From Isoperla grammatica (lineage: Eukaryota > Arthropoda > Insecta > Plecoptera > Perlodidae): a DNA stretch of 64,000 nt. The translations under genes and the position numbers were made by a program. The DNA lies in contig OX246740.1 of NCBI GenBank assembly GCA_945910005.1, forward strand, positions 56,165,221 to 56,229,220, in the 5' to 3' direction. The stretch's first letter is position 1, and every line of letters begins with the position of its first letter. Shown piece after piece: positions 20,223 through 52,741 of the stretch. Under the pieces are notes generated by a model, which was not told the origin of the DNA, did no database searches, and saw only the letters and a program-made list of their open reading frames with translations.

Positions 20223-20298
20223 TTCGAATAGATAAAACATAGAAAATGCAAATCGTGAACCTACAATGCGCCGAAAGTAGTGACAGTGCCAGCTCTCG

Positions 20299-22537
20299 TG
20301 ACACCCCTGGGCGTAGTTTCGCCCGCGCCCAATGCACCCGCCACGCAAGCGGCAGCGAGGCTCGTAGCCAACTCCTGGTGGTCTGTGACACCCCTGGGCG
20401 TAGTTTCGCCCGCGCCCAATGCACCCGCCACGCAAGCGGCAGCGAGGCTCGTAGCCAACTCCTGACGCTCTGTGACACCCCTGGGCGTAGTTTCGCCCGC
20501 GCCCAATGCACCCGCCACGCAAGCGGCAGCGAGGCCCGTAGCCAACTCCTGGTGGTCTGTGACACCCCTGGGCGTAGTTTCGCCCGCGCCCAATGCACCC
20601 GCCACGCAAGCGGCAGCGAGGCTCGTAGCCAACTCCTGACGCTCTGTGACACCCCTGGGCGTAGTTTCGCCCGCGCCCAATGCACCCGCCACGCAAGCGG
20701 CAGCGAGGCTCGTAGCCAACTCCTGGTGGTCTGTGACACCCCTGGGCGTAGTTTCGCCCGCGCCCAATGCACCCGCCACGCAAGCGGCAGCGAGGCCCGT
20801 AGCCAACTCCTGGTGGTCTGTGACACCCCTGGGCGTAGTTTCGCCCGCGCCCAATGCACCCGCCACGCAAGCGGCAGCGAGGCTCGTAGCCAACTCCTGG
20901 TGGTCTGTGACACCCCTGGGCGTAGTTTCGCCCGCGCCCAATGCACCCGCCACGCAAGCGGCAGCGAGGCCCGTAGCCAACTCCTGGTGGTCTGTGACAC
21001 CCCTGGGCGTAGTTTCGCCCGCGCCCAATGCACCCGCCACGCAAGCGGCAGCGAGGCCCGTAGCCAACTCCTGGTGGTCTGTGACACCCCTGGGCGTAGT
21101 TTCGCCCGCGCCCAATGCACCCGCCACGCAAGCGGCAGCGAGGCTCGTAGCCAACTCCTGACGCTCTGTGACACCCCTGGGCGTAGTTTCGCCCGCGCCC
21201 AATGCACCCGCCACGCAAGCGGCAGCGAGGCCCGTAGCCAACTCCTGGTGGTCTGTGACACCCCTGGGCGTAGTTTCGCCCGCGCCCAATGCACCCGCCA
21301 CGCAAGCGGCAGCGAGGCTCGTAGCCAACTCCTAGCGGTCTGTGACACCCCTGGGCGTAGTTTCGCCCGCGCCCAATGCACCCGCCACGCAAGCGGCAGC
21401 GAGGCTCGTAGCCAACTCCTGACGCTCTGTGACACCCCTGGGCGTAGTTTCGCCCGCGCCCAATGCACCCGCCACGCAAGCGGCAGCGAGGCCCGTAGCC
21501 AACTCCTGGTGGTCTGTGACACCCCTGGGCGTAGTTTCGCCCGCGCCCAATGCACCCGCCACGCAAGCGGCAGCGAGGCCCGTAGCCAACTCCTGGTGGT
21601 CTGTGACACCCCTGGGCGTAGTTTCGCCCGCGCCCAATGCACCCGCCACGCAAGCGGCAGCGAGGCTCGTAGCCAACTCCTGACGGTCTGTGACACCCCT
21701 GGGCGTAGTTTCGCCCGCGCCCAATGCACCCGCCACGCAAGCGGCAGCGAGGCCCGTAGCCAACTCCTGGTGGTCTGTGACACCCCTGGGCGTAGTTTCG
21801 CCCGCGCCCAATGCACCCGCCACGCAAGCGGCAGCGAGGCTCGTAGCCAACTCCTGACGCTCTGTGACACCCCTGGGCGTAGTTTCGCCCGCGCCCAATG
21901 CACCCGCCACGCAAGCGGCAGCGAGGCCCGTAGCCAACTCCTGGTGGTCTGTGACACCCCTGGGCGTAGTTTCGCCCGCGCCCAATGCACCCGCCACGCA
22001 AGCGGCAGCGAGGCTCGTAGCCAACTCCTAGCGGTCTGTGACACCCCTGGGCGTAGTTTCGCCCGCGCCCAATGCACCCGCCACGCAAGCGGCAGCGAGG
22101 CTCGTAGCCAACTCCTGACGCTCTGTGACACCCCTGGGCGTAGTTTCGCCCGCGCCCAATGCACCCGCCACGCAAGCGGCAGCGAGGCCCGTAGCCAACT
22201 CCTGGTGGTCTGTGACACCCCTGGGCGTAGTTTCGCCCGCGCCCAATGCACCCGCCACGCAAGCGGCAGCGAGGCCCGTAGCCAACTCCTGGTGGTCTGT
22301 GACACCCCTGGGCGTAGTTTCGCCCGCGCCCAATGCACCCGCCACGCAAGCGGCAGCGAGGCTCGTAGCCAACTCCTGACGGTCTGTGACACCCCTGGGC
22401 GTAGTTTCGCCCGCGCCCAATGCACCCGCCACGCAAGCGGCAGCGAGGCCCGTAGCCAACTCCTGGTGGTCTGTGACACCCCTGGGCGTAGTTTCGCCCG
22501 CGCCCAATGCACCCGCCACGCAAGCGGCAGCGAGGCT
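20299..22537 (+). repeat. Minisatellite, 87-bp unit, ~26 copies, higher-order structure
   Basis: The unit starts TGACACCCCTGGGCGTAGTT and ends CGTAGCCAACTCCT plus a six-base variable linker. Two markers vary: GGCTCG/GGCCCG and the linker (GGTGGT, GACGCT, AGCGGT, GACGGT). The marker pattern of copies 10-17 (21082-21777) repeats exactly in copies 18-25 (21778-22473), giving a 696-bp higher-order period. The unit has 29 codons and no stop in several frames, so open frames of about 800 codons appear on both strands; they carry no domain and I do not call them genes. Confidence 0.96.
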
Positions 22538-26635: not shown

Positions 26636-26989
26636 AGCTAGAGGCGCATTGTGCTCACTGTCTCACATGGGACAATGCAACAACGTCTCACAACAATATT
26701 TAGTTAAACCTTTGAGGCAACAATAGCACAAAGTCAAAAAAAGTATTCAGAGACTGAATACACACCTTTTCGAAACAAACTTTTTCAATGATTTCCAAAA
26801 AACCTGTCCATACATTAAAAAACTCCAGCCCGAGCCGGGAATCAGATCGCGGACCTTCTGCGTTGGAACCGGGAATAAACCCACCAACACAAGAGTTACA
26901 CATTTCAATAAATAAAACAAAATAAATGCAATATTGTGTATTGCCTATTAATTAATTAATATATATTCTCTCTACGAAGAAGTGTGTAG
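26636..26989. other. Non-coding stretch before the ATGT array
   Basis: No gene is supported. A weak tRNA-like GATTCCCGGCTCGGGCT on the minus strand near 26826-26842 is too degenerate to call. Confidence 0.45.
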
Positions 26990-27535
26990 TGTATGTATGT
27001 ATGTATGTATGTATGTATGTATGTATGTATGTATGTATGTATGTATGTATGTATGTATGTATGTATGTATGTATGTATGTATGTATGTATGTATGTATGT
27101 ATGTATGTATGTATGTATGTATGTATGTATGTATGTATGTATGTATGTATGTATGTATGTATGTCTGTATGTCTGTATATCTGTTTGTATGTATGTATGT
27201 ATGTATGTATGTATGTATGTATGTATGTCTGTATGTATGTATGTATGTATGTATGTATGTATGTATGTATGTATGTATGTATGTATGTATGTATGTATGT
27301 ATGTATGTATGTATGTATGTATGTATGTATGTATGTATGTATGTATGTATGTATGTATGTATGTATGTATGTATGTATGTATGTATGTATGTATGTATGT
27401 ATGTATGTATGTATGTATGTATGTCTGTATGTCTTTATGTATGTATGTATGTATGTATGTATGTATGTATGTATGTATGTATGTATGTATGTATGTCTGT
27501 ATGTCTGTATGTCTGTATGTCTGTATGTCTGTAGT
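26990..27535 (+). repeat. ATGT tetranucleotide microsatellite, ~545 bp
   Basis: Almost pure (ATGT)n with scattered GTCT variants at 27163-27190, 27226, 27423-27436 and again at the right end. It ends a few bases before the palindromic element starts. Open frames through it on both strands are trivial. Confidence 0.97.
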
Positions 27536-27537
27536 AC

Positions 27538-27541
27538 TCGT
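27538..27541 (+). repeat. Putative 4-bp target-site duplication (left)
   Basis: TCGT directly precedes the left end of the palindrome and matches TCGT at 42908-42911 directly after the right end; the flanks differ beyond it. Four bases can match by chance (1 in 256). Confidence 0.55.
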
Positions 27542-27619
27542 GAGTAGGGGGTAAATGGGGGTTCTGGAACAGTGGCGGATCTCGCTTTAGCATTGTAGTC
27601 CCATAAAGGATCCGCCACT
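27542..27619. repeat. Left terminus with terminal hairpin
   Basis: The end begins GAGTAGGGGGTAAATGGGGG. An 11-bp perfect inverted repeat (AGTGGCGGATC at 27571-27581, GATCCGCCACT at 27609-27619, 27-base loop) follows. The motif within it is that of the subterminal array, here in both orientations. The right end mirrors this at about 42831-42907. Confidence 0.8.
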
Positions 27620-28860
27620 CACACACAAAGGATCTCGGCAAACTAATGTGATGTAACCTACTTTCACTACGCTAAGACATCTAAATTTAACCTAACTCAA
27701 GGTCACAACGGACGTAACCACTAACCCCCCCCCCCCCTCACCACCCTCCAAAGTCATAAAAAAAAATATAGAATAATATATTCTTATATAACCTTACCCT
27801 TCCATTGATATTTTTTGCAACAATTTTCTAGTTCCACTGACGTTTCTATTTACAGATCTGAAAATGTGGCGGATCTCAACACACAAAGTATAACGTACTT
27901 ATATTAAACCTAACCACTCACTAACCCCCCCCCCCCCCCCCCCCCCCCCCCTCAGAATCATAAATGTATATTCTTATTCTTACATCTTACCCTAAATTGA
28001 ATATTTTTTACAACACTTACAATACCACTATCGTTTCTAATTATAGATCTAGAACTGTGGCGGATCTCAACGCGCAATGTAACATCAGTTACTAATATTT
28101 TTGCATTAGCTAACCAATATATTTTTATTTTCATCATTATTTGTTAATAATTGGGTTTTACGTTATTCAATTTATTTAATGATATTTTTATTTATTGTTT
28201 TGATTCCGTGGCGGATTTCACTATAACATTGGAACACGCGTGACGTCACACAAACCTGCTGAGACTTGCAGACACACGCATTTTCCTGTTAAGGTTTGAA
28301 AAATAAGCAGTGAAGCAATGATGTTTCTATTTATAGAGCTGAAACTGTGGCGGATCTCAACGCACAATATACAACGTAATTTTAATTTATAAAGTACCAC
28401 AAATATGTTTCCATTAATTACATTATTTTTATTTTTATTAAAATGTTTCTATTTATAGATCTGATACCGTGGCGGATCTCAACGCACAATATAACGCAAT
28501 AATATTTTATGTAAGTTATACACATATTTCTTCGATTCCATTATTTTATTTTACTTAAAATGTTTCTATTTATAGATCTGAAACCAAGGCGGATCTCAAC
28601 ACATAAAATACTTTTATTCTACATGAGATAACACAAATATTTCAATTCCATTATTTTCATTTAATTTACAGATGTTTCTATTTATAGATCTAAAACTGTG
28701 GCGGATCTCATCGCGCAATGTAACATACTAACATTTTACATAAGGTAACAAATATATTTTTATTTTCAATATATTTTGTTAATAATTGGGGTTTACGTTA
28801 TTTAATATATTATTTACTAATGTCTCTATTTTTAGTTTTGATTCCGTGGCAGATCTCACT
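27572..28860 (+). repeat. Left subterminal motif array (GTGGCGGATCTCA)
   Basis: Nine direct copies start at about 27572, 27866, 28057, 28208, 28347, 28469, 28586, 28698 and 28846, 110-300 bases apart, plus one inverted copy at 27609. Most are preceded by TTTCTATTTATAGATCTG and followed by CGCACAATRTAACG-like sequence. Two copies carry ACTATAACATTG instead. Long C runs lie at about 27726-27737 and 27927-27951. The layout resembles iterated protein-binding sites in subterminal DNA of transposons and origins, but no binding protein is known here. Confidence 0.8.
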
Positions 28861-29039
28861 ATAACATTGTTTACTAACAATATCGTCCAGATCACAGCAA
28901 TGATACTATGTATTATATAAACACACTTGTTAATATCTGTACAATTTATAAATGTATTTAAATATGCTACGGATGATGAAATAAGGATAGCTTGGGACTA
29001 AAAAGGATCAATTATATACAATATTATAATTATAACATA

Positions 29040-29045
29040 TTTATT
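29040..29045 (-). terminator. Polyadenylation signal of left polymerase gene
   Basis: AATAAA on the minus strand, about 125 bases after the stop codon. Between them lies a strikingly purine-rich GAAGAAAG-type stretch in the mRNA sense (29103-29170). Confidence 0.55.
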
Positions 29046-29170
29046 TTCCAGAAACCACACATTTTATATAATCTATTTATATACATTTTATAATACAATG
29101 TCCTTCACACTTTTCTTCCGTCCTTTCTTCGTCGTTTCTTCTTTCTTTCGTCCGTCTTTTCTTCTGTTCT

Positions 29171-32100
29171 TCACTTTTTCTTAATTCTAATATGACCATA
29201 TGCAAGTGTTTGAATACCATCTTCTAATAAATATCGCTTATCATCAGCAGGTGAGAGAGCAATCTTCCTCTGTTTGACGCTATACACTTCATGTTTATAT
29301 TGTCTTATGGTATACATTTCCTCACTTATTATTTTGCTGTTCAGTAAACATTTCTTGTAATGCTCGTGTTGTATTTTCTTTTTCAGTGTTTGTTTCACTA
29401 CACCTTTTGCAACTTTCTTCTCTTCACCGCTCTCCTTCAATAAAGAATACATTTTTGGTCTCAAGCCAATGAACTCTTTAATCAAACTTCCTCCCATTTC
29501 ATCCTTCATTTTACCAAGACATTTATTATTTCGCATATCAAATAGAACATGATTTTGTGGATAATTAGAAGTGTCGAATAGATGAGCATGTTCCCTTACA
29601 TCATTATAAACATCTTCAGTTCGTATTTCATAACACAACGAATCTGTGTCAGTGAACAGAAGACTTGCTTTGTTTCCAAATGTTTCATTCATAAAAGAAT
29701 AGTGGAAGTCATACATAAATGTTTTACTGAGTTCCAAGATAGAGAACCCAGCGTATATCGGTCTGTTCAACATGAGTGTTTTCTTAATTGATTTAATTGC
29801 TACTAGATTATTCGCAAATATAGTGAATCCCTCAAATGTTGGTGATGCAATTAATTTCTTCGCCCTCTTTTCAGTGGTAACTAAATCAACATTAACCCTC
29901 TTTCTAAGGGACTCTAAACTTTTGCCATAGATTGCATTGTTCATCAATTTATAGTAACTTTTCTCAAATTCATTTTTTGCACGTTTTCTCTTTTCAGTAT
30001 TTAAGTCAATAAAAGGTTTCAACCACTTACTTTGGTTAAATTCAATCACTCGATGGATTTTTTTCAATCTCATTCCATATGCTATATACTGCTGTAGATT
30101 TTTGTAGTGGATAACATAGTTTTCTTTGTTCTTTAGATTGGGAACTAGCTTTTTAATTTTCCCAGTGGTCTTAATATTTAATTTTGAATTTAAAGCTTGT
30201 GAAAATGGAGACAACAATTCATTCTTGATTTCCATTCGTTCTGGTGCAAGGGGGTAACAGTTATGTGTTTCATGTAAGTTTTCGGGATACTCCAAGTCCA
30301 CTTCTAGAATATACCCCTTACCATTTTCATCGCGCACATTTTCCACATCGAGTAATTCAATTTCGTTTTTATCTAACCAACGAAAACCACTGATAGGGAG
30401 ATTCTCAACCATTGACGTTCCATAGAGATTGTTGCAATCCCAATACATTATGTATTTACTTTCCTCGTTTTGTTTATAATCATCCATATACTTGTTGTTA
30501 GCAACTGAGAATCTTTTTGATATCATTGATACTCCCCCACGTATACCACTCTCTATAAAAATGTGCATGTCGATGTCAGTTAACAATTCGAGCTTCACCC
30601 CTGTTGTTTTTAGACAAGCTTGCCATGCAAAACCTGGAGCGGTATATAAGTGAGCTGGATCAATTTCATAATCTTCTAAGGCTAATGTTCTAAAATTTTC
30701 GAAAACATCAGCCAACAACAATACATCAGTCTGTACGTATAGGTCATGGTATTCTCCCATGGTTTTGATTTCAAAGGCATCCCACACTCTTAGTGCATGC
30801 TCATAGTCTTCAACTGATACACTGCTTTGAGTCAAAGTACTATAAAAAGCTTCTATAGGTGGTAAAAAAGTGTCATTCATTTTAGCATCAGAATCCATAT
30901 ACTCGTAAGGGAATACACCTTTTCTCAAAAGCAAAGACACTCGCTCATCATTAAAGTTTTGTTTCATGATCATAAAACGTTGAATGTTATCACACACCTT
31001 TAAATTTTCTACCAATTGTTCCAAAGATGTGTTCAGAAATTGAAACGAGTCAATAAACTGCAAGTTACCGAGAGAAAATGAAATATACTTTTCCATGTTG
31101 TTAGGTATGCAAGTAATTTTTTTGTTTTCTATTTTACCCATTCCTTGCATGATTAAATGCGAATCATAGTTTCGCAAATTATGGAAAATCACAGGAATCT
31201 TCTTTGAAAATTTGAAATTCAAATTACATACATTATGGGCGGCGCCTCTGAATTTACCTGTCATATGACAGTGATCTCTTACTCGATCATTGTGCATTGA
31301 CTTTTTGCATATATGACAACATTCTGAAGTTTGAAAAATAGACTCCTCGTCAGAACTCATCTCCATTGGCACAACACATCTTTTTATATCACTTATTATG
31401 TTTTCTTCGTTTAACATGCAATCTAAAAATGCATCTACAACATTTTTGCCTCTGTACACAGTCGGTTGTTTTACGCATTTTCCCTCTGAATCAACAACTA
31501 CATATGCAAACCCCGACGGAACATGATGAGCGATTTCAGTAGTATGTGAAATGTTTGGATCTTGTTCACATCCCTCGATGCGTTTCACAAAACATTCAAA
31601 ATCAGCGTAGATAACGAAGGGCACTTTCAATGCAAGGTGATGATTTTCAAATTCCATCCACTTAGTCTCTTGTGTAGGTAAGGCGATTTTTTGAGGCTCG
31701 TTTTCAGCACACCGCGGTTCGTGATCGTCAAGTAAATGTTTTGATGAGAAACGATGTAGACAATAATGACAGTAAAATGATCTGCATTTATGCTTGGTTA
31801 GAGAACTCATCAAACGATTAAAGTTTTTAATAAGACAATAATGTTTTTTCTCCCCATCGATTATATAAAGTAAATCCACATGTCTTTTACAACACTGTTT
31901 CGTAATGCGTAGTGGAAAAACTTCTTTTTCATATCCATACACGTTTACCGAGATGTTATTCTGTTGTTCAAACTTATCAATGTGTTTGATTGACACTGGA
32001 TAAGCAATTCCAGTCATGTTAAGCTCATCTTCCCACTCGATATATTTTTGTACACGATGTTGATTATCACTCACATGGTGAATTGCTGCTAAAACAGACC

Positions 32101-32923
32101 ATAGAAAGCAACGTTCGTCTTTGTTTTGAATGTTGATTATCGATTTTGTATTTCCAAGTTCACTTGGGAGCGCAATATAACTTGCAGCTGCAAGCGGAAC
32201 ATACTGAGAGATTTTTAATTCAAGATATTCTACTGATTCTTCATTCCAACCACTTCCGTCGCGTTGAAACTCCCAGCTTCTTCTTGTTAATAGCTCCATC
32301 ACCTCACTCACTTGATCATTAATCTCATGTTCTCCTAACAGTAAACAGCACCCACTTCTAAAACAGGGTGTTGATTTTACAGTTTCACCCTCACTATCAG
32401 TACGGCTAAATCTCACTAACATCGCTATATACCACTTTATACCCTTCATTTCACGAAGTTCTTCAGATAGTTTATGTTTAATAGTTTCGCTTAGACTATC
32501 CTTAAATGCTAAGTGATTTATCTCATTGTTTTGGTTTTTAAATTTATAAGTCTTCACAATATCATTCAATGCACTATTAAATTCACAAGGGTCGTCACAC
32601 ACTTTGTCTTGTTCAATCACAACTTTATCTTCTGGCACTTCTTCATCGCCAGTTGACGTTTTATTGCAAGATGTTTTCATGTGTCTCTTTAACGCGTCTT
32701 CACGTGAAAAGGTCTTAAAACAAGATGCACACTCCATTTTCGACGTTAGGTGTGTCTTCATGTGGCGTTCCAAGTCATCACGTCGCTTGAATATAGAAGA
32801 GCAAATGCTGCACTTTCGCATCAATAATGAAGTAGAATGTACATTTCGACGATGCCGATTAAGATTAGTCTTTTGAGTGAAGACTTTCTCGCAGTCAACA
32901 CACTCAAATCTCGCAGACGACAT
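29171..32923 (-). CDS. Family B DNA polymerase, protein-primed type, with zinc fingers and EndoVII-like module (left copy)
   Basis: The frame encodes 1250 residues from the first ATG (32921-32923, A at -3). From the N-terminus: three C2H2/C2HC fingers (about residues 8-29, 38-58, 65-86), a conserved region of unknown role (about 265-375), a fourth Cys/His finger (385-405), ExoI DFE (441-443), an endonuclease VII-like Cys/His cluster with DHCH, RG and CN motifs (536-567), ExoII NLRNYD (582-587), ExoIII YVQTD (729-733), Pol A D829 in YWDCNNLYG, Pol B KLMNNAIYG (992-1000), Pol C DTD (1092-1094) and KMY (1157-1159). The long stretch between Pol A and Pol B is where TPR1 sits in protein-primed enzymes. 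All expected exonuclease and polymerase residues are present, so activity is likely. The family is DNA_pol_B_2. Reading is outward, away from the palindrome centre. It differs from the right copy at residue 168 (Met here). Confidence 0.93.
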   Translation of the reverse strand: MSSARFECVDCEKVFTQKTNLNRHRRNVHSTSLLMRKCSICSSIFKRRDDLERHMKTHLTSKMECASCFKTFSREDALKRHMKTSCNKTSTGDEEVPEDKVVIEQDKVCDDPCEFNSALNDIVKTYKFKNQNNEINHLAFKDSLSETIKHKLSEELREMKGIKWYIAMLVRFSRTDSEGETVKSTPCFRSGCCLLLGEHEINDQVSEVMELLTRRSWEFQRDGSGWNEESVEYLELKISQYVPLAAASYIALPSELGNTKSIINIQNKDERCFLWSVLAAIHHVSDNQHRVQKYIEWEDELNMTGIAYPVSIKHIDKFEQQNNISVNVYGYEKEVFPLRITKQCCKRHVDLLYIIDGEKKHYCLIKNFNRLMSSLTKHKCRSFYCHYCLHRFSSKHLLDDHEPRCAENEPQKIALPTQETKWMEFENHHLALKVPFVIYADFECFVKRIEGCEQDPNISHTTEIAHHVPSGFAYVVVDSEGKCVKQPTVYRGKNVVDAFLDCMLNEENIISDIKRCVVPMEMSSDEESIFQTSECCHICKKSMHNDRVRDHCHMTGKFRGAAHNVCNLNFKFSKKIPVIFHNLRNYDSHLIMQGMGKIENKKITCIPNNMEKYISFSLGNLQFIDSFQFLNTSLEQLVENLKVCDNIQRFMIMKQNFNDERVSLLLRKGVFPYEYMDSDAKMNDTFLPPIEAFYSTLTQSSVSVEDYEHALRVWDAFEIKTMGEYHDLYVQTDVLLLADVFENFRTLALEDYEIDPAHLYTAPGFAWQACLKTTGVKLELLTDIDMHIFIESGIRGGVSMISKRFSVANNKYMDDYKQNEESKYIMYWDCNNLYGTSMVENLPISGFRWLDKNEIELLDVENVRDENGKGYILEVDLEYPENLHETHNCYPLAPERMEIKNELLSPFSQALNSKLNIKTTGKIKKLVPNLKNKENYVIHYKNLQQYIAYGMRLKKIHRVIEFNQSKWLKPFIDLNTEKRKRAKNEFEKSYYKLMNNAIYGKSLESLRKRVNVDLVTTEKRAKKLIASPTFEGFTIFANNLVAIKSIKKTLMLNRPIYAGFSILELSKTFMYDFHYSFMNETFGNKASLLFTDTDSLCYEIRTEDVYNDVREHAHLFDTSNYPQNHVLFDMRNNKCLGKMKDEMGGSLIKEFIGLRPKMYSLLKESGEEKKVAKGVVKQTLKKKIQHEHYKKCLLNSKIISEEMYTIRQYKHEVYSVKQRKIALSPADDKRYLLEDGIQTLAYGHIRIKKK

Positions 32924-33214
32924 TTTAAAGAAACTAAAACCAAAAGAAATATCCAAGTATTAATATACACATGGCTTAACTATTAGAATTACCACACATT
33001 ATTTGTTTAATAAAATATTATTATTTTATGTAGGTCTATCCACGCAAGTATATATATATACAAATAATTATAGTTCTTTTAATTTTTTAACCACATATTT
33101 ATACTATAAATAATTGACATAAAACATATACATATGTTATATATACAGACGCTTTTTAATTAATTCAAATGTAATTATGAGACCACAAGATGTCACACTT
33201 TACCGAACTCATTA

Positions 33215-33550
<336 letters not shown>

Positions 33551-33559
33551 AATAAGCTC

Positions 33560-34250
33560 ATTGTTTATTTTCATTGTTATTGCATATAAATAATCATATC
33601 ATGTTATTTTTATTCATAATGAATTATGTTTTCCAATATAAATTAAAAATGTATAAAGAACAATATCAAATGTAATTGTTATTAAATGTTACTATATTTA
33701 AATGTTACGTATAAATAAATAAACTTACTTTCAAAATATGAATCTATTCATTAAATTAAAACTGATGAAACTCGAAATTCGAAATTTTTATTTATTATAA
33801 TTATTATTTACGAAAACCAGAAATCTTAATAGGTCCGTCAATGACGATAGCTCAATGACTAATGAGTAAAAAGACAGTGCTCAGTACTTATATAGGGCAG
33901 GTATCTTACTTCAACTAAATTCCGTAAACACACGAAGGTACCCGAAGTTTGCCGAATATCAATCTTGTGATATTGAATAAAACAACTAATAAGCTGCTTG
34001 GCATACCGAAAAGTGATAATGTTATGATTGTACAAGTACAAACACATACCAAGTATTATGTTACATTGCGCGATGAGAACAAGTATGAACTTGTTTCATC
34101 GTGCCTTAGCGGAAGACTGCGGCACAAAAGTGAGTGAAAGTGATGGATTCATGTCAAAAACTGAAGGACAAAAACCAAACCGCTACTACATGTTTCAATA
34201 ATAATAAGTTAAGACAAGGAATAAATGTTAGGTTGTATGTCTGGCTAGTT
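33560..34250 (-). repeat. Block A, left arm (promoter-bearing duplicated block)
   Basis: This block is homologous to block B at about 34565-35200 (offset about 1005 bases) with many substitutions. It contains, on the minus strand, CCTATATAAGTACTGAGCAC (33882-33901), a TATA box pointing toward the polymerase gene. Shared signposts with B include CCGTAAACACACGAAGG and GACGATAGCTCAATGA. Its mirror copy lies at about 36193-36883. Confidence 0.7.
33886..33894 (-). promoter_or_regulatory. TATA box upstream of left polymerase gene (block A)
   Basis: CTATATAAG on the minus strand, roughly 970 bases upstream of the polymerase ATG. A promoter this far away implies a long leader or a 5' intron. The equivalent box is present in block B. 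Confidence 0.4.
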
Positions 34251-34313
34251 ATTCCATCTATATCGATTTGTTATGAAAATCCTAAGAGATAAGGTTATGT
34301 TAGGATATGTAAG

Positions 34314-34381
34314 TTTAGGTTAGGTTAGTTTCTACACGTTATTTTATATTTTTTGTTAGGTCTGATCCACCTAACCTAACG
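34314..34381. repeat. TTAGG-like inverted repeat
   Basis: TTTAGGTTAGGTTAG at about 34314-34328 faces CCTAACCTAACG at about 34370-34381. The motif recalls the TTAGG telomere unit of arthropods, but only two or three units are present. The mirror lies at about 36050-36130. Confidence 0.5.
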
Positions 34382-34424
34382 TAAAGTAAGAAGAAGAAGA
34401 AGAATTATTATAATTTTAATTATT

Positions 34425-34426
34425 AA

Positions 34427-34512
<86 letters not shown>

Positions 34513-34515
34513 TTA
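34425..34515 (-). repeat. ATT microsatellite (left arm, inner)
   Basis: Pure (ATT)n of about 80 bp. The mirror at 35908-36003 is 12 bp longer. Confidence 0.93.
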
Positions 34516-34564
34516 TTTTTCTTCTTATTATTATTATTATTAAGTACTATTTGTTGTTGTTGTT

Positions 34565-35201
34565 GTTTGTTATTTTCATTGTTATTATGCATATAAATAA
34601 TCATATGTAGCATTTTTTTCTTCATAATACATTTTTTACCAATACAAATTTAAAAAAAAAAAATATTTTAAAGGTAATTGTTATTAATATTATTATTTAA
34701 ATGGATGTTTGAATAAAAAAAAAATAAACTTACTTTCAAAGTATAATAGCAATCATTAATTTTATTACTTATGAAACTCGATCTTCAAAACTTTTTTATT
34801 TTATAAACTGCAGAAATCTTACTAGCTCCGTCGATGACGATAGCTCAATGATTAATGAGTAAGTACTCAGTGCACATAGCTTATATAGGGAAGGTATCTC
34901 ATTTCAACGAAAATCCGTAAACACACGAAGGTCGCCGAAGTTCGCCGAATATGCATCTAGTTGTATTGAATAAAATAACTGTTAAGATAAGTCTCATGTT
35001 ACAACGACGTGAGAACAAGAATGAACTTGTTTCATCGCGCCTCAGCAGAAGACTGCGGCAGCAAAGTGAGTGAAAGTGAATGATTCACGTCAAAACCTGA
35101 AGGACAAAGACCAAACCGCTACTACCTGTTTCAATAATATTCTGTCTAATAATGGGGATAATGTTAGGTTTTAAGTTTGATTAGTTAAGGTTGGATTGGT
35201 T
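34565..35201 (-). repeat. Block B, left arm, reaching the palindrome centre
   Basis: This is a second, diverged copy of block A and directly abuts the central stem. On the minus strand it contains CCCTATATAAGCTATG (about 34879-34894). Its mirror is 35218-35855. Between its left and right forms only a few substitutions close to the centre are visible. Confidence 0.7.
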
Positions 35202-35230
35202 CCATTTAGATAGATGAAACCAATCCAACC
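35189..35230. repeat. Centre of the palindrome: 13-bp stem and 16-base spacer
   Basis: GGTTGGATTGGTT (35189-35201) and AACCAATCCAACC (35218-35230) flank the spacer CCATTTAGATAGATGA, which is not its own complement. Two mismatches between arms lie within 20 bases of the stem. An asymmetric spacer argues against a simple fold-back at one point. Confidence 0.85.
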
Positions 35231-35855
35231 TCAACTAACCAAACTTAAAACCTAACATTATCCCCATTATTAGACAGAATATTATTGAAACAGGTAGTAG
35301 CGGTTTGGTCTTTGTCCTTCAGGTTTTGACGTGAATCATTCACTTTCACTCACTTTGCTGCCGCAGTCTTCTGCTGAGGCGCGATGAAACAAGTTCATTC
35401 TTGTTCTCACGTCGTTGTAACATGAGACTTATCTTAACAGTTATTTTATTCAATACAACTAGATGCATATTCGGCGAACTTCGGCGACCTTCGTGTGTTT
35501 ACGGATTTTCGTTGAAATGAGATACCTTCCCTATATAAGCTATGTGCACTGAGTACTTACTCATTAATCATTGAGCTATCGTCATCGACGGAGCTAGTAA
35601 GATTTCTGCAGTTTATAAAATAAAAAAGTTTTGAAGATCGAGTTTCATAAGTAATAAAATTAATGATTGCTATTATACTTTGAAAGTAAGTTTATTTTTT
35701 TTTTTATTCAAACATCCATTTAAATAATAATATTAATAACAATTACCTTTAAAATATTTTTTTTTTTAAATTTGTATTGGTAAAAAATGTATTATGAAGA
35801 AAAAAATGCTACATATGATTATTTATATGCATAATAACAATGAAAATAACAAACA
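35218..35855 (+). repeat. Block B, right arm
   Basis: Mirror of 34565-35201. It carries CTATATAAGC at about 35532-35541 on the plus strand, pointing toward the right polymerase gene. Confidence 0.7.
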
Positions 35856-35906
35856 ACAACAACAACAAATAGTACTTAATAATAATAATAATAAGAAGAA
35901 AAATAA

Positions 35907-35907
<1 letters not shown>

Positions 35908-36003
<96 letters not shown>
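35908..36003 (+). repeat. AAT microsatellite (right arm, inner)
   Basis: Pure (AAT)n, 12 bp longer than its left-arm mirror. Confidence 0.93.
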
Positions 36004-36004
<1 letters not shown>

Positions 36005-36192
36005 TTAATAATTAAAATTATAATAATTCTTCTTCTTCTTCTTACTTTACGTTAGGTTAGGTGGATCAGACCTAACAAAAAATATAAAATAACGTGTAGA
36101 AACTAACCTAACCTAAACTTACATATCCTAACATAACCTTATCTCTTAGGATTTTCATAACAAATCGATATAGATGGAATAACTAGCCAGAC

Positions 36193-36883
36193 ATACAACC
36201 TAACATTTATTCCTTGTCTTAACTTATTATTATTGAAACATGTAGTAGCGGTTTGGTTTTTGTCCTTCAGTTTTTGACATGAATCCATCACTTTCACTCA
36301 CTTTTGTGCCGCAGTCTTCCGCTAAGGCACGATGAAACAAGTTCATACTTGTTCTCATCGCGCAATGTAACATAATACTTGGTATGTGTTTGTACTTGTA
36401 CAATCATAACATTATCACTTTTCGGTATGCCAAGCAGCTTATTAGTTGTTTTATTCAATATCACAAGATTGATATTCGGCAAACTTCGGGTACCTTCGTG
36501 TGTTTACGGAATTTAGTTGAAGTAAGATACCTGCCCTATATAAGTACTGAGCACTGTCTTTTTACTCATTAGTCATTGAGCTATCGTCATTGACGGACCT
36601 ATTAAGATTTCTGGTTTTCGTAAATAATAATTATAATAAATAAAAATTTCGAATTTCGAGTTTCATCAGTTTTAATTTAATGAATAGATTCATATTTTGA
36701 AAGTAAGTTTATTTATTTATACGTAACATTTAAATATAGTAACATTTAATAACAATTACATTTGATATTGTTCTTTATACATTTTTAATTTATATTGGAA
36801 AACATAATTCATTATGAATAAAAATAACATGATATGATTATTTATATGCAATAACAATGAAAATAAACAATGAGCTTATTTTT
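36193..36883 (+). repeat. Block A, right arm
   Basis: Mirror of the left block A, with CTATATAAG at 36537-36545 and GACGGACC about 45 bases further on. It is a direct-orientation paralogue of block B at 35218-35855. Confidence 0.7.
36537..36545 (+). promoter_or_regulatory. TATA box upstream of right polymerase gene (block A)
   Basis: CTATATAAG followed after about 25 bases by TTTTTACTCATTAGTCATTG, which could hold an initiator. The polymerase ATG lies 975 bases downstream. A pyrimidine-rich CTTTTGGTTTTAG ends just before the ATG (37497-37509) and could be the acceptor of a 5' leader intron. Confidence 0.4.
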
Positions 36884-36889
36884 ATTATT

Positions 36890-37225
<336 letters not shown>

Positions 37226-37519
37226 TCGTAATGAGTTCGGTAAAGTGTGACATCTTGTGGTCTCATAATTACATTTGAATTAATTAAAAAGCGTCTGTAT
37301 ATATAACATATGTATATGTTTTATGTCAATTATTTATAGTATAAATATGTGGTTAAAAAATTAAAAGAACTATAATTATTTGTATATATATATACTTGCG
37401 TGGATAGACCTACATAAAATAATAATATTTTATTAAACAAATAATGTGTGGTAATTCTAATAGTTAAGCCATGTGTATATTAATACTTGGATATTTCTTT
37501 TGGTTTTAGTTTCTTTAAA

Positions 37520-40500
37520 ATGTCGTCTGCGAGATTTGAGTGTGTTGACTGCGAGAAAGTCTTCACTCAAAAGACTAATCTTAATCGGCATCGTCGAAAT
37601 GTACATTCTACTTCATTATTGATGCGAAAGTGCAGCATTTGCTCTTCTATATTCAAGCGACGTGATGACTTGGAACGCCACATGAAGACACACCTAACGT
37701 CGAAAATGGAGTGTGCATCTTGTTTTAAGACCTTTTCACGTGAAGACGCGTTAAAGAGACACATGAAAACATCTTGCAATAAAACGTCAACTGGCGATGA
37801 AGAAGTGCCAGAAGATAAAGTTGTGATTGAACAAGACAAAGTGTGTGACGACCCTTGTGAATTTAATAGTGCATTGAATGATATTGTGAAGACTTATAAA
37901 TTTAAAAACCAAAACAATGAGATAAATCACTTAGCATTTAAGGATAGTCTAAGCGAAACTATTAAACATAAACTATCTGAAGAACTTCGTGAAATGAAGG
38001 GTATAAAGTGGTATATAGCGCTGTTAGTGAGATTTAGCCGTACTGATAGTGAGGGTGAAACTGTAAAATCAACACCCTGTTTTAGAAGTGGGTGCTGTTT
38101 ACTGTTAGGAGAACATGAGATTAATGATCAAGTGAGTGAGGTGATGGAGCTATTAACAAGAAGAAGCTGGGAGTTTCAACGCGACGGAAGTGGTTGGAAT
38201 GAAGAATCAGTAGAATATCTTGAATTAAAAATCTCTCAGTATGTTCCGCTTGCAGCTGCAAGTTATATTGCGCTCCCAAGTGAACTTGGAAATACAAAAT
38301 CGATAATCAACATTCAAAACAAAGACGAACGTTGCTTTCTATGGTCTGTTTTAGCAGCAATTCACCATGTGAGTGATAATCAACATCGTGTACAAAAATA
38401 TATCGAGTGGGAAGATGAGCTTAACATGACTGGAATTGCTTATCCAGTGTCAATCAAACACATTGATAAGTTTGAACAACAGAATAACATCTCGGTAAAC
38501 GTGTATGGATATGAAAAAGAAGTTTTTCCACTACGCATTACGAAACAGTGTTGTAAAAGACATGTGGATTTACTTTATATAATCGATGGGGAGAAAAAAC
38601 ATTATTGTCTTATTAAAAACTTTAATCGTTTGATGAGTTCTCTAACCAAGCATAAATGCAGATCATTTTACTGTCATTATTGTCTACATCGTTTCTCATC
38701 AAAACATTTACTTGACGATCACGAACCGCGGTGTGCTGAAAACGAGCCTCAAAAAATCGCCTTACCTACACAAGAGACTAAGTGGATGGAATTTGAAAAT
38801 CATCACCTTGCATTGAAAGTGCCCTTCGTTATCTACGCTGATTTTGAATGTTTTGTGAAACGCATCGAGGGATGTGAACAAGATCCAAACATTTCACATA
38901 CTACTGAAATCGCTCATCATGTTCCGTCGGGGTTTGCATATGTAGTTGTTGATTCAGAGGGAAAATGCGTAAAACAACCGACTGTGTACAGAGGCAAAAA
39001 TGTTGTAGATGCATTTTTAGATTGCATGTTAAACGAAGAAAACATAATAAGTGATATAAAAAGATGTGTTGTGCCAATGGAGATGAGTTCTGACGAGGAG
39101 TCTATTTTTCAAACTTCAGAATGTTGTCATATATGCAAAAAGTCAATGCACAATGATCGAGTAAGAGATCACTGTCATATGACAGGTAAATTCAGAGGCG
39201 CCGCCCATAATGTATGTAATTTGAATTTCAAATTTTCAAAGAAGATTCCTGTGATTTTCCATAATTTGCGAAACTATGATTCGCATTTAATCATGCAAGG
39301 AATGGGTAAAATAGAAAACAAAAAAATTACTTGCATACCTAACAACATGGAAAAGTATATTTCATTTTCTCTCGGTAACTTGCAGTTTATTGACTCGTTT
39401 CAATTTCTGAACACATCTTTGGAACAATTGGTAGAAAATTTAAAGGTGTGTGATAACATTCAACGTTTTATGATCATGAAACAAAACTTTAATGATGAGC
39501 GAGTGTCTTTGCTTTTGAGAAAAGGTGTATTCCCTTACGAGTATATGGATTCTGATGCTAAAATGAATGACACTTTTTTACCACCTATAGAAGCTTTTTA
39601 TAGTACTTTGACTCAAAGCAGTGTATCAGTTGAAGACTATGAGCATGCACTAAGAGTGTGGGATGCCTTTGAAATCAAAACCATGGGAGAATACCATGAC
39701 CTATACGTACAGACTGATGTATTGTTGTTGGCTGATGTTTTCGAAAATTTTAGAACATTAGCCTTAGAAGATTATGAAATTGATCCAGCTCACTTATATA
39801 CCGCTCCAGGTTTTGCATGGCAAGCTTGTCTAAAAACAACAGGGGTGAAGCTCGAATTGTTAACTGACATCGACATGCACATTTTTATAGAGAGTGGTAT
39901 ACGTGGGGGAGTATCAATGATATCAAAAAGATTCTCAGTTGCTAACAACAAGTATATGGATGATTATAAACAAAACGAGGAAAGTAAATACATAATGTAT
40001 TGGGATTGCAACAATCTCTATGGAACGTCAATGGTTGAGAATCTCCCTATCAGTGGTTTTCGTTGGTTAGATAAAAACGAAATTGAATTACTCGATGTGG
40101 AAAATGTGCGCGATGAAAATGGTAAGGGGTATATTCTAGAAGTGGACTTGGAGTATCCCGAAAACTTACATGAAACACATAACTGTTACCCCCTTGCACC
40201 AGAACGAATGGAAATCAAGAATGAATTGTTGTCTCCATTTTCACAAGCTTTAAATTCAAAATTAAATATTAAGACCACTGGGAAAATTAAAAAGCTAGTT
40301 CCCAATCTAAAGAACAAAGAAAACTATGTTATCCACTACAAAAATCTACAGCAGTATATAGCATATGGAATGAGATTGAAAAAAATCCATCGAGTGATTG
40401 AATTTAACCAAAGTAAGTGGTTGAAACCTTTTATTGACTTAAATACTGAAAAGAGAAAACGTGCAAAAAATGAATTTGAGAAAAGTTACTATAAATTGAT

Positions 40501-41272
40501 GAACAATGCAATCTATGGCAAAAGTTTAGAGTCCCTTAGAAAGAGGGTTAATGTTGATTTAGTTACCACTGAAAAGAGGGCGAAGAAATTAATTGCATCA
40601 CCAACATTTGAGGGATTCACTATATTTGCGAATAATCTAGTAGCAATTAAATCAATTAAGAAAACACTCATGTTGAACAGACCGATATACGCTGGGTTCT
40701 CTATCTTGGAACTCAGTAAAACATTTATGTATGACTTCCACTATTCTTTTATGAATGAAACATTTGGAAACAAAGCAAGTCTTCTGTTCACTGACACAGA
40801 TTCGTTGTGTTATGAAATACGAACTGAAGATGTTTATAATGATGTAAGGGAACATGCTCATCTATTCGACACTTCTAATTATCCACAAAATCATGTTCTA
40901 TTTGATATGCGAAATAATAAATGTCTTGGTAAAATGAAGGATGAAATGGGAGGAAGTTTGATTAAAGAGTTCATTGGCTTGAGACCAAAAATGTATTCTT
41001 TATTGAAGGAGAGCGGTGAAGAGAAGAAAGTTGCAAAAGGTGTAGTGAAACAAACACTGAAAAAGAAAATACAACACGAGCATTACAAGAAATGTTTACT
41101 GAACAGCAAAATAATAAGTGAGGAAATGTATACCATAAGACAATATAAACATGAAGTGTATAGCGTCAAACAGAGGAAGATTGCTCTCTCACCTGCTGAT
41201 GATAAGCGATATTTATTAGAAGATGGTATTCAAACACTTGCATATGGTCATATTAGAATTAAGAAAAAGTGA
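37520..41272 (+). CDS. Family B DNA polymerase, protein-primed type, with zinc fingers and EndoVII-like module (right copy)
   Basis: This is the mirror of the left gene, with the same 1250-residue length and the same order of fingers, ExoI, EndoVII-like cluster, ExoII, ExoIII, Pol A, Pol B, Pol C and KxY motifs, all intact. The only visible protein difference is Leu at residue 168 (CTG at 38021-38023), where the left copy has Met (ATG). The frame also runs 11 codons upstream, but without an ATG. There are no introns within the frame, which fits a virus- or plasmid-like gene. The 70 bases after the stop are almost pure purine. Confidence 0.93.
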   Translation: MSSARFECVDCEKVFTQKTNLNRHRRNVHSTSLLMRKCSICSSIFKRRDDLERHMKTHLTSKMECASCFKTFSREDALKRHMKTSCNKTSTGDEEVPEDKVVIEQDKVCDDPCEFNSALNDIVKTYKFKNQNNEINHLAFKDSLSETIKHKLSEELREMKGIKWYIALLVRFSRTDSEGETVKSTPCFRSGCCLLLGEHEINDQVSEVMELLTRRSWEFQRDGSGWNEESVEYLELKISQYVPLAAASYIALPSELGNTKSIINIQNKDERCFLWSVLAAIHHVSDNQHRVQKYIEWEDELNMTGIAYPVSIKHIDKFEQQNNISVNVYGYEKEVFPLRITKQCCKRHVDLLYIIDGEKKHYCLIKNFNRLMSSLTKHKCRSFYCHYCLHRFSSKHLLDDHEPRCAENEPQKIALPTQETKWMEFENHHLALKVPFVIYADFECFVKRIEGCEQDPNISHTTEIAHHVPSGFAYVVVDSEGKCVKQPTVYRGKNVVDAFLDCMLNEENIISDIKRCVVPMEMSSDEESIFQTSECCHICKKSMHNDRVRDHCHMTGKFRGAAHNVCNLNFKFSKKIPVIFHNLRNYDSHLIMQGMGKIENKKITCIPNNMEKYISFSLGNLQFIDSFQFLNTSLEQLVENLKVCDNIQRFMIMKQNFNDERVSLLLRKGVFPYEYMDSDAKMNDTFLPPIEAFYSTLTQSSVSVEDYEHALRVWDAFEIKTMGEYHDLYVQTDVLLLADVFENFRTLALEDYEIDPAHLYTAPGFAWQACLKTTGVKLELLTDIDMHIFIESGIRGGVSMISKRFSVANNKYMDDYKQNEESKYIMYWDCNNLYGTSMVENLPISGFRWLDKNEIELLDVENVRDENGKGYILEVDLEYPENLHETHNCYPLAPERMEIKNELLSPFSQALNSKLNIKTTGKIKKLVPNLKNKENYVIHYKNLQQYIAYGMRLKKIHRVIEFNQSKWLKPFIDLNTEKRKRAKNEFEKSYYKLMNNAIYGKSLESLRKRVNVDLVTTEKRAKKLIASPTFEGFTIFANNLVAIKSIKKTLMLNRPIYAGFSILELSKTFMYDFHYSFMNETFGNKASLLFTDTDSLCYEIRTEDVYNDVREHAHLFDTSNYPQNHVLFDMRNNKCLGKMKDEMGGSLIKEFIGLRPKMYSLLKESGEEKKVAKGVVKQTLKKKIQHEHYKKCLLNSKIISEEMYTIRQYKHEVYSVKQRKIALSPADDKRYLLEDGIQTLAYGHIRIKKK

Positions 41273-41397
41273 AGAACAGAAGAAAAGACGGACGAAAGAA
41301 AGAAGAAACGACGAAGAAAGGACGGAAGAAAAGTGTGAAGGACATTGTATTATAAAATGTATATAAATAGATTATATAAAATGTGTGGTTTCTGGAA

Positions 41398-41403
41398 AAT
41401 AAA
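41398..41403 (+). terminator. Polyadenylation signal of right polymerase gene
   Basis: AATAAA about 125 bases after the stop codon, mirrored exactly in the left arm. Confidence 0.55.
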
Positions 41404-41579
41404 TATGTTATAATTATAATATTGTATATAATTGATCCTTTTTAGTCCCAAGCTATCCTTATTTCATCATCCGTAGCATATTTAAATACATTTATAAATT
41501 GTACAGATATTAACAAGTGTGTTTATATAATACATAGTATCATTGCTGTGATCTGGACGATATTGTTAGTAAACAATGT

Positions 41580-42879
41580 TATAGTGAGATCTGCCACGGA
41601 ATCAAAACTAAAAATAGAGACATTAGTAAATAATATATTAAATAACGTAAACCCCAATTATTAACAAAATATATTGAAAATAAAAATATATTTGTTACCT
41701 TATGTAAAATGTTAGTATGTTACATTGCGCGATGAGATCCGCCACAGTTTTAGATCTATAAATAGAAACATCTGTAAATTAAATGAAAATAATGGAATTG
41801 AAATATTTGTGTTATCTCATGTAGAATAAAAGTATTTTATGTGTTGAGATCCGCCTTGGTTTCAGATCTATAAATAGAAACATTTTAAGTAAAATAAAAT
41901 AATGGAATCGAAGAAATATGTGTATAACTTACATAAAATATTATTGCGTTATATTGTGCGTTGAGATCCGCCACGGTATCAGATCTATAAATAGAAACAT
42001 TTTAATAAAAATAAAAATAATGTAATTAATGGAAACATATTTGTGGTACTTTATAAATTAAAATTACGTTGTATATTGTGCGTTGAGATCCGCCACAGTT
42101 TCAGCTCTATAAATAGAAACATCATTGCTTCACTGCTTATTTTTCAAACCTTAACAGGAAAATGCGTGTGTCTGCAAGTCTCAGCAGGTTTGTGTGACGT
42201 CACGCGTGTTCCAATGTTATAGTGAAATCCGCCACGGAATCAAAACAATAAATAAAAATATCATTAAATAAATTGAATAACGTAAAACCCAATTATTAAC
42301 AAATAATGATGAAAATAAAAATATATTGGTTAGCTAATGCAAAAATATTAGTAACTGATGTTACATTGCGCGTTGAGATCCGCCACAGTTCTAGATCTAT
42401 AATTAGAAACGATAGTGGTATTGTAAGTGTTGTAAAAAATATTCAATTTAGGGTAAGATGTAAGAATAAGAATATACATTTATGATTCTGAGGGGGGGGG
42501 GGGGGGGGGGGGGGGGGGTTAGTGAGTGGTTAGGTTTAATAATATATCTAAGTATGTTACACTTTGTGTGTTGAGATCCGCCACATTTTCAGATCTGTAA
42601 ATAGAAACGTCAGTGGAACTAGAAAATTGTTGCAAAAAATATCAATGGAAGGGTAAGGTTATATAAGAATATATTATTCTATATTTTTTTTTATGACTTT
42701 GGAGGGTGGTGAGGGGGGGGGGGGTTAGTGGTTACGTCCGTTGTGACCTTGAGTTAGGTTAAATTTAGATGTCTTAGCGTAGTGAAAGTAGGTTACATCA
42801 CATTAGTTTGCCGAGATCCTTTGTGTGTGAGTGGCGGATCCTTTATGGGACTACAATGCTAAAGCGAGATCCGCCACTG
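41580..42879 (-). repeat. Right subterminal motif array
   Basis: Mirror of 27572-28860: nine copies of TGAGATCCGCCAC in direct order, seen at about 41588, 41738, 41850, 41965, 42087, 42226, 42377, 42573 and 42866, and one inverted near 42831. A G run at about 42493-42518 mirrors the left C run, with small length differences. Confidence 0.8.
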
Positions 42880-42907
42880 TTCCAGAACCCCCATTTACCC
42901 CCTACTC

Positions 42908-42911
42908 TCGT
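42908..42911 (+). repeat. Putative 4-bp target-site duplication (right)
   Basis: TCGT directly after the right end; see the left copy at 27538-27541. Confidence 0.55.
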
Positions 42912-44471
42912 GTGTCCTCTCAGTATGGCTATCTATGTCTTCAACAGTCTATCACGGATCTTGCATTGTGTCGAGATAATGGCTGATGAATACTGATGAC
43001 GGGAGACCCAACAATGAATGATGTGGTCACTATGCTACTGCAGGGGCGCATGGCCTGTTTAATAAACATACACCGACAAATATACTCACCACGGACTTGG
43101 CCGCTTATTTGAATCTCTAAACTACTCAACAACGATTCCATTCAAATGATTATGTCATAATTTCGAGCATTTTCCTTGTCAATGAGTTATTATAATTTTT
43201 AATGCAAATTAGCCAGAAATAAGTTGATTTGGAATAGAAACGTTTCGCAAGGACATGTGGCAAGCATGATAATATTCCCAGAATAGACAGTCAGTTCCCG
43301 AAAACATTTAGGAGGTTTCAAAGAAATAATCTTAACTAACGTTGTCGTTTTACTAATCAGTAATTACTTTCAAAATGGATAGTTACTTTACAAATTACCA
43401 AATCGAATTAGATTTCCTTGATTAGAAATTACCACCAACAAGAGTCTTCTCATTATGAGTAACAACTCATGATGAGTACTGACTGTTAACTGTTCGCTTG
43501 ACCTCGAAGCTGCCCACTAAGTCCACTGTCGAGTAGACTAGACTCTAACTGCTGCCCACTTTCCACCGTATGGTATTTATTAGTGAGATTACCATTTGCC
43601 TAATGTTTACTGACTATCACCTTCTATGTTCACGAACATTCGTACATCAATATCACAATTGAAACAACTGAAAACGAAGTAGGATTGAATAAACTAGACA
43701 CAACATGAGTTGGAAATTGATGTCGTGTTAAAGCGCACAATAAAAAATACGTACAATGTCAGAAAGTATTGACAGATTTGCTTATGGATTATGGCAATTT
43801 TTGTCCCAGTATAAAAATATAAAATTAATAAAACCTCAGTTGTATGATCTGCCTTTCTTCACCAGTCTTAGATAAAATGTATTTTGACTATTTGCTTGGG
43901 TGATAATGTTCCACTTCCAGTAACTAGAAAAGAATGTATGATGTGTACCTAACACTCAACACAGTAATTCAGATTATAATTCAAATCAGTTCATGATGAG
44001 TCACGATTATTTTTGTCGATTTCTAAGAACTACCGTTCATTTTAGGCAAAAATTCGTTGACTAATCAGTAATCAGCTAATTAAACTAAAACAGCGTCGAG
44101 AGTTGTTGACTTCTGAATACGACCATGTTGCATGTGGTAGTTTCATGCCCGTACACACCTTCTTGTTAAATACATATTCTATCGTATGAAAGCTATTACG
44201 CTCCAAAACGAACTCGCTATCTTTTCACTCCATCAGGGATTTCTCAATTTACCTAATCGTCGTGGTTTTGAAAGCAGCCGCAGTTTATCAAGCGGAAGTG
44301 GAACAATAATGTTTTGATCTTTTATCTTTCGTCCAATGAAAATATCGTGTTTCATGTATGTAGGCTAGCTAATCAATTGTTGCTACCACAAGTAATTAGT
44401 AAACATATTGCGTTTGATTTTTGATCGTTTATGTTTCGTTATTGACATGAGTCATTATTATTATCATCATT
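42912..44471. other. Non-coding stretch, nothing recognised
   Basis: AT-rich host sequence to the right of the palindromic element, without a supported gene or RNA. Confidence 0.55.
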
Positions 44472-49233: not shown

Positions 49234-49461
49234 TTACACTTTGAGTGGTTGGTTATATTTTTTAAAATTAATCACATTGAAAATGCCCTTATCTTTTTCG
49301 TGTCCATCAAGTAACTGATATGCATTATTCCCCACTTTCCGATGAATAATATATGGGCCTTCGTAGAGCATAAAGAACTTTGCAATTTCACGGTTAGCCG
49401 CACTGGACAAGTGATTGGACTGTAGCAATACCAGGTCGCCAGGCTGAAATGTCGTTGGTTT
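49234..49461 (-). pseudogene. Integrase C-terminal fragment
   Basis: An open stretch of about 75 codons reads QPGDLVLL and then FMLYEGPYIIHRK, typical of the Ty3/gypsy integrase C-terminal GPY/F module. It lies in a different frame from the pol ORF, whose stop (49460-49462) abuts it. The N-terminal HHCC zinc module and the DDE core expected between RNase H and this point are absent, so an internal deletion removed them. Confidence 0.85.
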
Positions 49462-51538: not shown

Positions 51539-51600
51539 GTGTCGAATATCGTCACTCCTGACCTGGTGTCGAACCGGAGACAGCGGAGTGTCCTGTCCCG

Positions 51601-52611: not shown

Positions 52612-52654
52612 GTCGAAAGAGAAAAAAAAAATTGTCTTTGAAATTATATAGATA

Positions 52655-52741
52655 AACCACGCACTTGCGTACACGCGCGTCACCGAATAAAGTTCGCCAA
52701 ATAATGATAATAACCCACGCACTTGCGTACACGCGCGTCAC
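52655..52741 (-). repeat. Leader duplication in the retrotransposon
   Basis: ACGCACTTGCGTACACGCGC plus GTCAC occurs twice, 55 bases apart, between the primer-binding site and gag. The repeated piece is itself partly palindromic. Confidence 0.85.

Follow-up and report, generated by a model that had tools for sequence, protein, structure and literature searches.

The window analysed here, a stretch of 64,000 nucleotides from the plecopteran Isoperla grammatica (assembly GCA_945910005.1, contig OX246740.1, positions 56,165,221 to 56,229,220 of the forward strand), harbors a palindromic element of 15,364 bp (27543-42906 of the window; bounds taken from the reading of both ends and from an arm-to-arm alignment), each arm of which carries one intact gene, polB, for a putative protein-primed family B DNA polymerase (PolB). 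The element is probably derived from the Polintons/adintoviruses, yet by gene content it is not a Polinton, as integrase and capsid genes were sought in it and not found. The explanation that we favor, with a probability of roughly one half, is that nothing but the polymerase end of its parent has been retained, in two copies that face each other, the inverted dimer having formed by fold-back, having been inserted by an integrase acting in trans, and encoding zinc fingers that bind its own tips.

The palindrome itself is real: the two mirror arms of about 7.7 kb that had been reported in a first-pass annotation of the same letters are confirmed by self-BLAST and by alignment of the arms. The left arm (27543-35209, 7,667 bp) carries the polymerase on the minus strand and the right arm (35212-42906, 7,695 bp) on the plus strand, each gene pointing toward the outer tip, and a 2-nt centre separates the arms at a midpoint of ~35210. 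On the minus strand, self-BLAST aligned 27542-42913 to 42907-27536 with 99.44% identity over 15,406 columns (18 mismatches, 12 gap openings), figures in which every arm difference counts double and the flanking 6-mers are included. The GC content is 30.8% in the element versus 41.7% in the remaining window. A chance origin of the palindrome is ruled out by its size and identity. According to the arm alignment, the arms differ at seven substitutions (27890, 27895, 32422, 35180, 35187, 35202, and 35206) and six indels, namely one in a C tract, one of 7 bp at 27901, two of 12 bp in trinucleotide arrays and two of a single A. Four of the seven substitutions fall within the central 30 bp (binomial p 8e-9), both 27890 and 27895 adjoin the 7-bp indel, and 32422 is the remaining non-central one. 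Perfect palindromes are a known artefact of long reads, and a read folded back on itself, or a head-to-head misjoin of two loci in the assembly, was therefore weighed as an explanation; however, the arms differ at the positions just listed, the symmetry ends exactly at a single 6-bp duplication and the flanks differ, which makes an artefact the least probable of all the origins considered.

Each arm contains one stop-to-stop open reading frame (ORF) of 1262 codons (29171-32959, minus strand; 37484-41272, plus strand), and translation from the first ATG yields 1250 aa for both the left copy of polB (29171-32923, minus strand), which mirrors the right one, and the right copy (37520-41272, plus strand), the two being intact and differing at a single residue (M/L). 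In the right copy, motif residues are found at positions 441, 583, and 730, which we take to be the exonuclease motifs, and at 830, 993, and 1093, presumably the polymerase motifs. Three C2H2 zinc fingers occupy the N-terminus (residues 7-86; 37535-37774, plus strand). An endonuclease VII-like zinc segment (residues 533-569; ~39113-39223, plus strand) lies between the exonuclease motifs and is present in 18/18 members of an alignment of the polymerase with its relatives (A1). D270, C273, and H362 of a possible N-terminal OTU-like domain, a trait of adintovirus PolBs, are conserved, and a Pfam OTU match is absent. The Pfam DNA_pol_B_2 model does not match the window polymerase, and it matches 1/18 aligned members, with the precomputed domain present in 5 of the 120 listed relatives; likewise, no polymerase came up when the PDB was searched by sequence profile, and PHROGs returned a polymerase match for the relative P0087 and none for the window protein (P0001). 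The identity of the protein is settled by fold comparison, in which densovirus/bidnavirus-group PolBs are among the best matches. Likeness in sequence and fold thus supports a protein-primed-type family B polymerase, as in Polintons/Mavericks, with priming itself being a prediction; together with the two uninterrupted ORFs, the fold comparison also bears out the earlier claim that such a polymerase is intact in each arm.

A total of 7,911 of 7,993 scored candidate proteins reached E 0.001, and the relatives described here are the best 120 of these 7,911. The nearest among those listed is P0003 (66% identical), while the named relatives among the matches listed include spider, mollusc, cnidarian, and lacewing proteins and, at 49%, the polymerase of Parasteatoda house spider adintovirus. 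A quick tree was built from 121 rows, namely all listed relatives except P0115 (119 of 120), the part of the window protein that starts at residue 426, and a piece from the metagenomic locus L001; in it, P0003 is the partner of the window protein (support 100) inside an 18-row clade (support 96) that includes spider proteins and the Parasteatoda adintovirus. When the first 260 residues of 121 PolBs were scanned for the finger pattern, 35 of them, the window protein included, had at least two zinc fingers. Four PolB loci (L001-L004) were found in contigs of bacterial or archaeal bins, and ORFs were examined for L001 and L004 only. L001-L003 carry PolB relatives in Gastranaerophilales, Ignavibacteria, and Nitrososphaeraceae bins, and L004 (JANYCR010000279.1, labelled as a Leptospiraceae metagenome-assembled genome) has what resembles an ordinary many-gene adintovirus-like layout with a chromodomain-type integrase, capsid-like ORFs, and a zinc-finger PolB (labels from ORF reading), and is probably a eukaryotic contig in a bacterial bin. 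No inverted repeat of at least 40 bp was found at L001-L004 within the sequence portion examined, and scans of a viral contig collection with the polymerase, alignment A1, and the 18-base tip gave no DNA relative.

The densovirus/bidnavirus-group fold matches raise the question of whether a multipartite bidnavirus-like virus left its polymerase segment in the genome in the form of an inverted dimer, and Vesanto virus, as described in the available part of its report, can have as many as twelve segments, many of which terminate in similar inverted sequences (PMC8363768). However, the fold of the Vesanto virus enzyme matches far less well (rank 37), the best 120 of 7,911 relatives comprise, where named, animal genome proteins and one adintovirus, and the 6-bp target-site duplication (TSD) and AGTAGG ends described below indicate an rve-type integrase. 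Nor is the bidnavirus gene set of NS1 helicase and parvovirus-type capsid present, the polymerase being the sole long ORF per arm besides trinucleotide arrays, and such an origin is very unlikely.

The gene content was assessed on the right arm, which has 51 ORFs of at least 45 aa, of which 21 lie in or across the polymerase frame (polymerase included), nine are trinucleotide arrays, and the 21 others span at most 78 codons. A Pfam search with 10 of these 21 short ORFs gave no match at the curated cut-off (best 16.1 bits versus 26.4), which, along with the ORF list, is consistent with the first-pass annotation that nothing else is coding in the arms. For an rve integrase, no ORF in the element is large enough, Pfam gave no match with these 10 short ORFs, and tblastn with the integrase-like ORF of L004 returned nothing below E 3.8. 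The ORF list, Pfam with the same short ORFs, and tblastn also revealed neither packaging ATPase, protease, or capsid genes nor a hexon or chromodomain integrase. As no integrase was found in the element, the enzyme probably came from elsewhere, and the element would be at best half autonomous.

Both ends of the element could be read. The 6-bp sequence CTCGTG precedes the left tip (27537-27542) and recurs as an exact copy after the right tip (42907-42912), whereas an exact 6-bp repeat was seen in 78 of 200,000 random flank-position pairs used as a control. The tips carry the motif AGTAGG (27543-27548, plus strand) and its mirror CCTACT (42901-42906), which agree at five of six bases with (AGT)2, an end type of vertebrate Mavericks. 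In the accessible portion of a survey of intact vertebrate Mavericks, these have 6-bp TSDs, as observed here on both sides, ends of the type (AGT)2//(ACT)2 or (AG)3//(CT)3, total sizes between 12,723 and 24,620 bp, and 46-1,447 bp of terminal repeat (PMC8097293), and 6-bp TSDs are described as the typical product of rve integrases in the part available of a second study (PMC12220804). With the TSD placed beyond the tips on both sides, a palindrome that already existed at the time of insertion is the simplest interpretation, which lends indirect support to the earlier proposal that the element inserted as a complete palindrome. The same TSD and tips would be expected if a normal Polinton had inserted and one of its terminal repeats had later copied the other half by repair synthesis, replacing integrase and capsid genes, and long inverted repeats are indeed able to convert one another. 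Such an origin in place, however, requires inward copying over 7.6 kb that halted at a small midpoint inverted repeat with the old interior wholly gone, and remnants of other Polinton genes were not found by the ORF, Pfam, and tblastn searches above; it is hence an improbable alternative. The insertion borders on a microsatellite, as 137 TGTA units (26985-27533) run up to three bases from the left TSD.

At the centre of the palindrome is an imperfect inverted repeat (35170-35250) with four mismatches and a 2-nt spacer, which folds as a strong hairpin (z -9.95), as expected of any palindrome centre. Because the arm differences cluster there, we infer that the dimer originated by fold-back, with a small old inverted repeat as the hinge and the remainder freshly copied. 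In a first step, the polymerase-bearing end of the parent would have folded back at this short imperfect repeat, and replication round the fold would have produced an inverted dimer with the same Polinton-type tip at both outer ends. At 15.4 kb, the dimer approximates the length of a full Maverick/adintovirus genome and would have two proper ends, which makes it a substrate for a Polinton-type integrase, while a single arm cannot supply two tips; an integrase provided in trans by a putative helper would then have inserted it with a 6-bp TSD. In a third step, the GTGGCGGAT repeats in the tips of the element would probably be bound by its three zinc fingers, thereby steering copying to its own ends. 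The terminal protein may reside in the polymerase itself, within its long N-terminal region, or may be borrowed. Flanking the centre, the left arm has two direct, putatively promoter-like copies ~1 kb apart (33807-34251 and 34800-35187; 82-83% alike where they align), and in the right-arm mirror (~35232-36624) both carry TATATAAG toward polB, at 35532 and 36537. It looks as if the promoter region had been duplicated before the palindrome formed.

The third step rests on a set of subterminal repeats with the core GTGGCGGATCTCA (at most two mismatches), nine copies of which lie in the left arm (27572-28858, plus strand) and nine, mirroring them, in the right arm (41585-42877, minus strand); all 18 occurrences in the window are in the outer ends of the element, versus a shuffle mean of 0.54. 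Exact GTGGCGGAT occurs in seven of the nine tip repeats, and an eighth GTGGCGGAT lies on the opposite strand near the tip (27610-27618). A potential hairpin near the tip, formed by the inverted pair GTGGCGGATC...GATCCGCCAC (27571-27619), is weak (z -2.17; 5/200 shuffles equal). Long C tracts follow ACTAACC in both tips (near 27725, at 27925-27951, and in the mirror), one being 27 C long. The finger helices of the window polymerase are QKTNLNR, RRDDLER, and REDALKR, for which we take the zinc-finger recognition table to predict 5'-GTG GCG GAA-3'. In the portions of three papers available to us, modules similar to these fingers are assigned the triplets GTG, GCG, and GAA; these portions hold no exact module for the third finger, the alanine of which occurs in a module listed with CTG, and one table row, by column order, pairs a Q-N-R finger with GAT. 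With at most one mismatch, the window has 24 occurrences of GTGGCGGAA, of which 16 lie in the tips and read GTGGCGGAT, whereas shuffles have a mean of 8.06 and none of 100 reaches 24. For one tip, 40 of the 4096 GNNGNNGNN 9-mers equal its eight matches (19 being G-runs), as do 16 of the 512 9-mers built from family-seen triplets (13 being G-runs), and the five alternative orders of the predicted triplets have no tip match. At a level of ~1-3%, the match between predicted finger site and tip repeats is suggestive.

Several observations weigh against the proposed mechanism. At the tips, a 4-bp TSD with GAGTAGG ends is also compatible with the letters, although the longest exact repeat is six, and the tip reads AGTAGG rather than a perfect AGTAGT. 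GTGGCGGAT fits the strict finger prediction only with one mismatch, and in a control with 13 predicted sites from 11 other PolBs with three or more fingers, the sites of P0018 and P0019 also give eight tip matches (with an undetermined base read as T), four give one to three, and seven give none; among these last is the nearest relative P0003, the fingers of which predict GTGGCGGGA. Searches of the element revealed neither an integrase nor a terminal-protein gene, and the window yielded no helper when seven proteins from a single distant adintovirus-like contig were used in tblastn (nothing below E 0.15), a weak test. Finally, a second copy was not seen (within the window, BLAST with an arm gave just matches of 22 bp and 19 bp, and PolB tblastn none), so that a family of palindromes and mobility as such are unproven.

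The single copy seen is what a one-off dead end would leave, in which an extrachromosomal Polinton/adintovirus genome was rearranged by fold-back, much as in palindromic defective genomes of protein-primed viruses, was integrated a single time by the enzyme of its parent, and did not go on to spread in palindromic form. The TSD and tips are compatible with such a helper insertion, and the arms are near-identical outside the centre (three substitutions in ~7.6 kb, two of them beside the 7-bp indel), so that the palindrome looks young. On the other side, the polymerase is intact in both copies, and the specificity of the fingers looks co-adapted to the tip repeats, although neither requires propagation as a palindrome. 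This one-off rearrangement is a possibility of about one chance in three, ranking close behind the preferred reading of a polymerase-end dimer inserted in trans.

Going beyond the polymerase-end dimer, the element could tentatively be seen as a palindromic satellite that depends on adintoviruses/Polintons, its polymerase-only unit of 7.7 kb spreading as a 15.4 kb inverted dimer with its own tip-reading polymerase and a helper's integrase, and perhaps capsids; we consider this rather doubtful. If true, only the dimer would offer two integrable tips and a full capsid-filling length, and zinc fingers matched to GTGGCGGAT would favor copying of its own genome over the helper's, making it a hyperparasite of an animal virus-like transposon. 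A literature search of titles and abstract openings, with subscription journals mostly uncovered, found no palindromic or polymerase-only Polinton among the papers listed. To our knowledge, the replication of Polintons/adintoviruses and the recognition targets of their polymerases are still mostly inferred; an element reduced to tips and polymerase, yet properly inserted, would reveal the minimal set of parts for replication and those that another element can supply, and the match between fingers and tip repeats offers a hypothesis, open to direct testing, of how origins are recognised in this group. Overall, the interpretation in the first-pass annotation is partly supported: the polymerase-only inverted copies of its minimal linear element stand, the self-replication that it proposed is conjectural, and the 6-bp TSD, AGTAGG ends, and adintovirus-group PolB place the kinship nearer to Polintons/adintoviruses. 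The TSD, the nine-fold tip repeats, and the duplicated promoter-like regions near the centre are additions to it.

Elsewhere in the window, a GC-rich 87-bp minisatellite (20298-22537; 25.7 copies, 96%) is open in several frames and yields spurious ORFs of up to 870 codons. Two adjoining ORFs of 720 and 378 codons (49460-52737, minus strand) resemble a Gypsy-type retrotransposon, with the best relative of the larger one being 54% identical. Rfam gave no family at cut-off anywhere in the window.

Palindromic defective adenovirus genomes, e.g., the symmetric recombinant of adenovirus 12, are a precedent for end duplication in protein-primed replicons, as they too are protein-primed genomes with one end mirrored, whereas the present element is an integrated transposon-like unit that retains a polymerase gene. 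Parvovirus-type replication passes through inverted dimer intermediates, in which copying round a hairpin likewise gives a palindromic dimer, whereas the element is PolB-based and an NS1-type nickase was not found. With the bidnaviruses and Vesanto virus, as far as the available parts of the reports describe them, it shares a related PolB and linear DNA with inverted termini (PMC4061559; PMC8363768), but it has no second gene, and hence neither NS1 helicase nor parvovirus capsid, and it is integrated with a TSD and palindromic. Hexon and chromodomain integrase, which belong to the definition of the adintoviruses, were not found in the element, while its PolB belongs to the same group by relatives, tree, and fold. 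Compared with Polintons/Mavericks, it has two PolB genes, lacks detectable integrase, ATPase, protease, and capsid genes, and has terminal repeats of 7.67 kb without a unique middle, as opposed to the 46-1,447 bp given for intact vertebrate Mavericks in the accessible portion of that survey (PMC8097293). What it has in common with them, judged against the same partial sources, is the 6-bp TSD, the AG-type ends, the total length, the protein-primed-type PolB, and the inverted termini (PMC8097293; PMC12220804).
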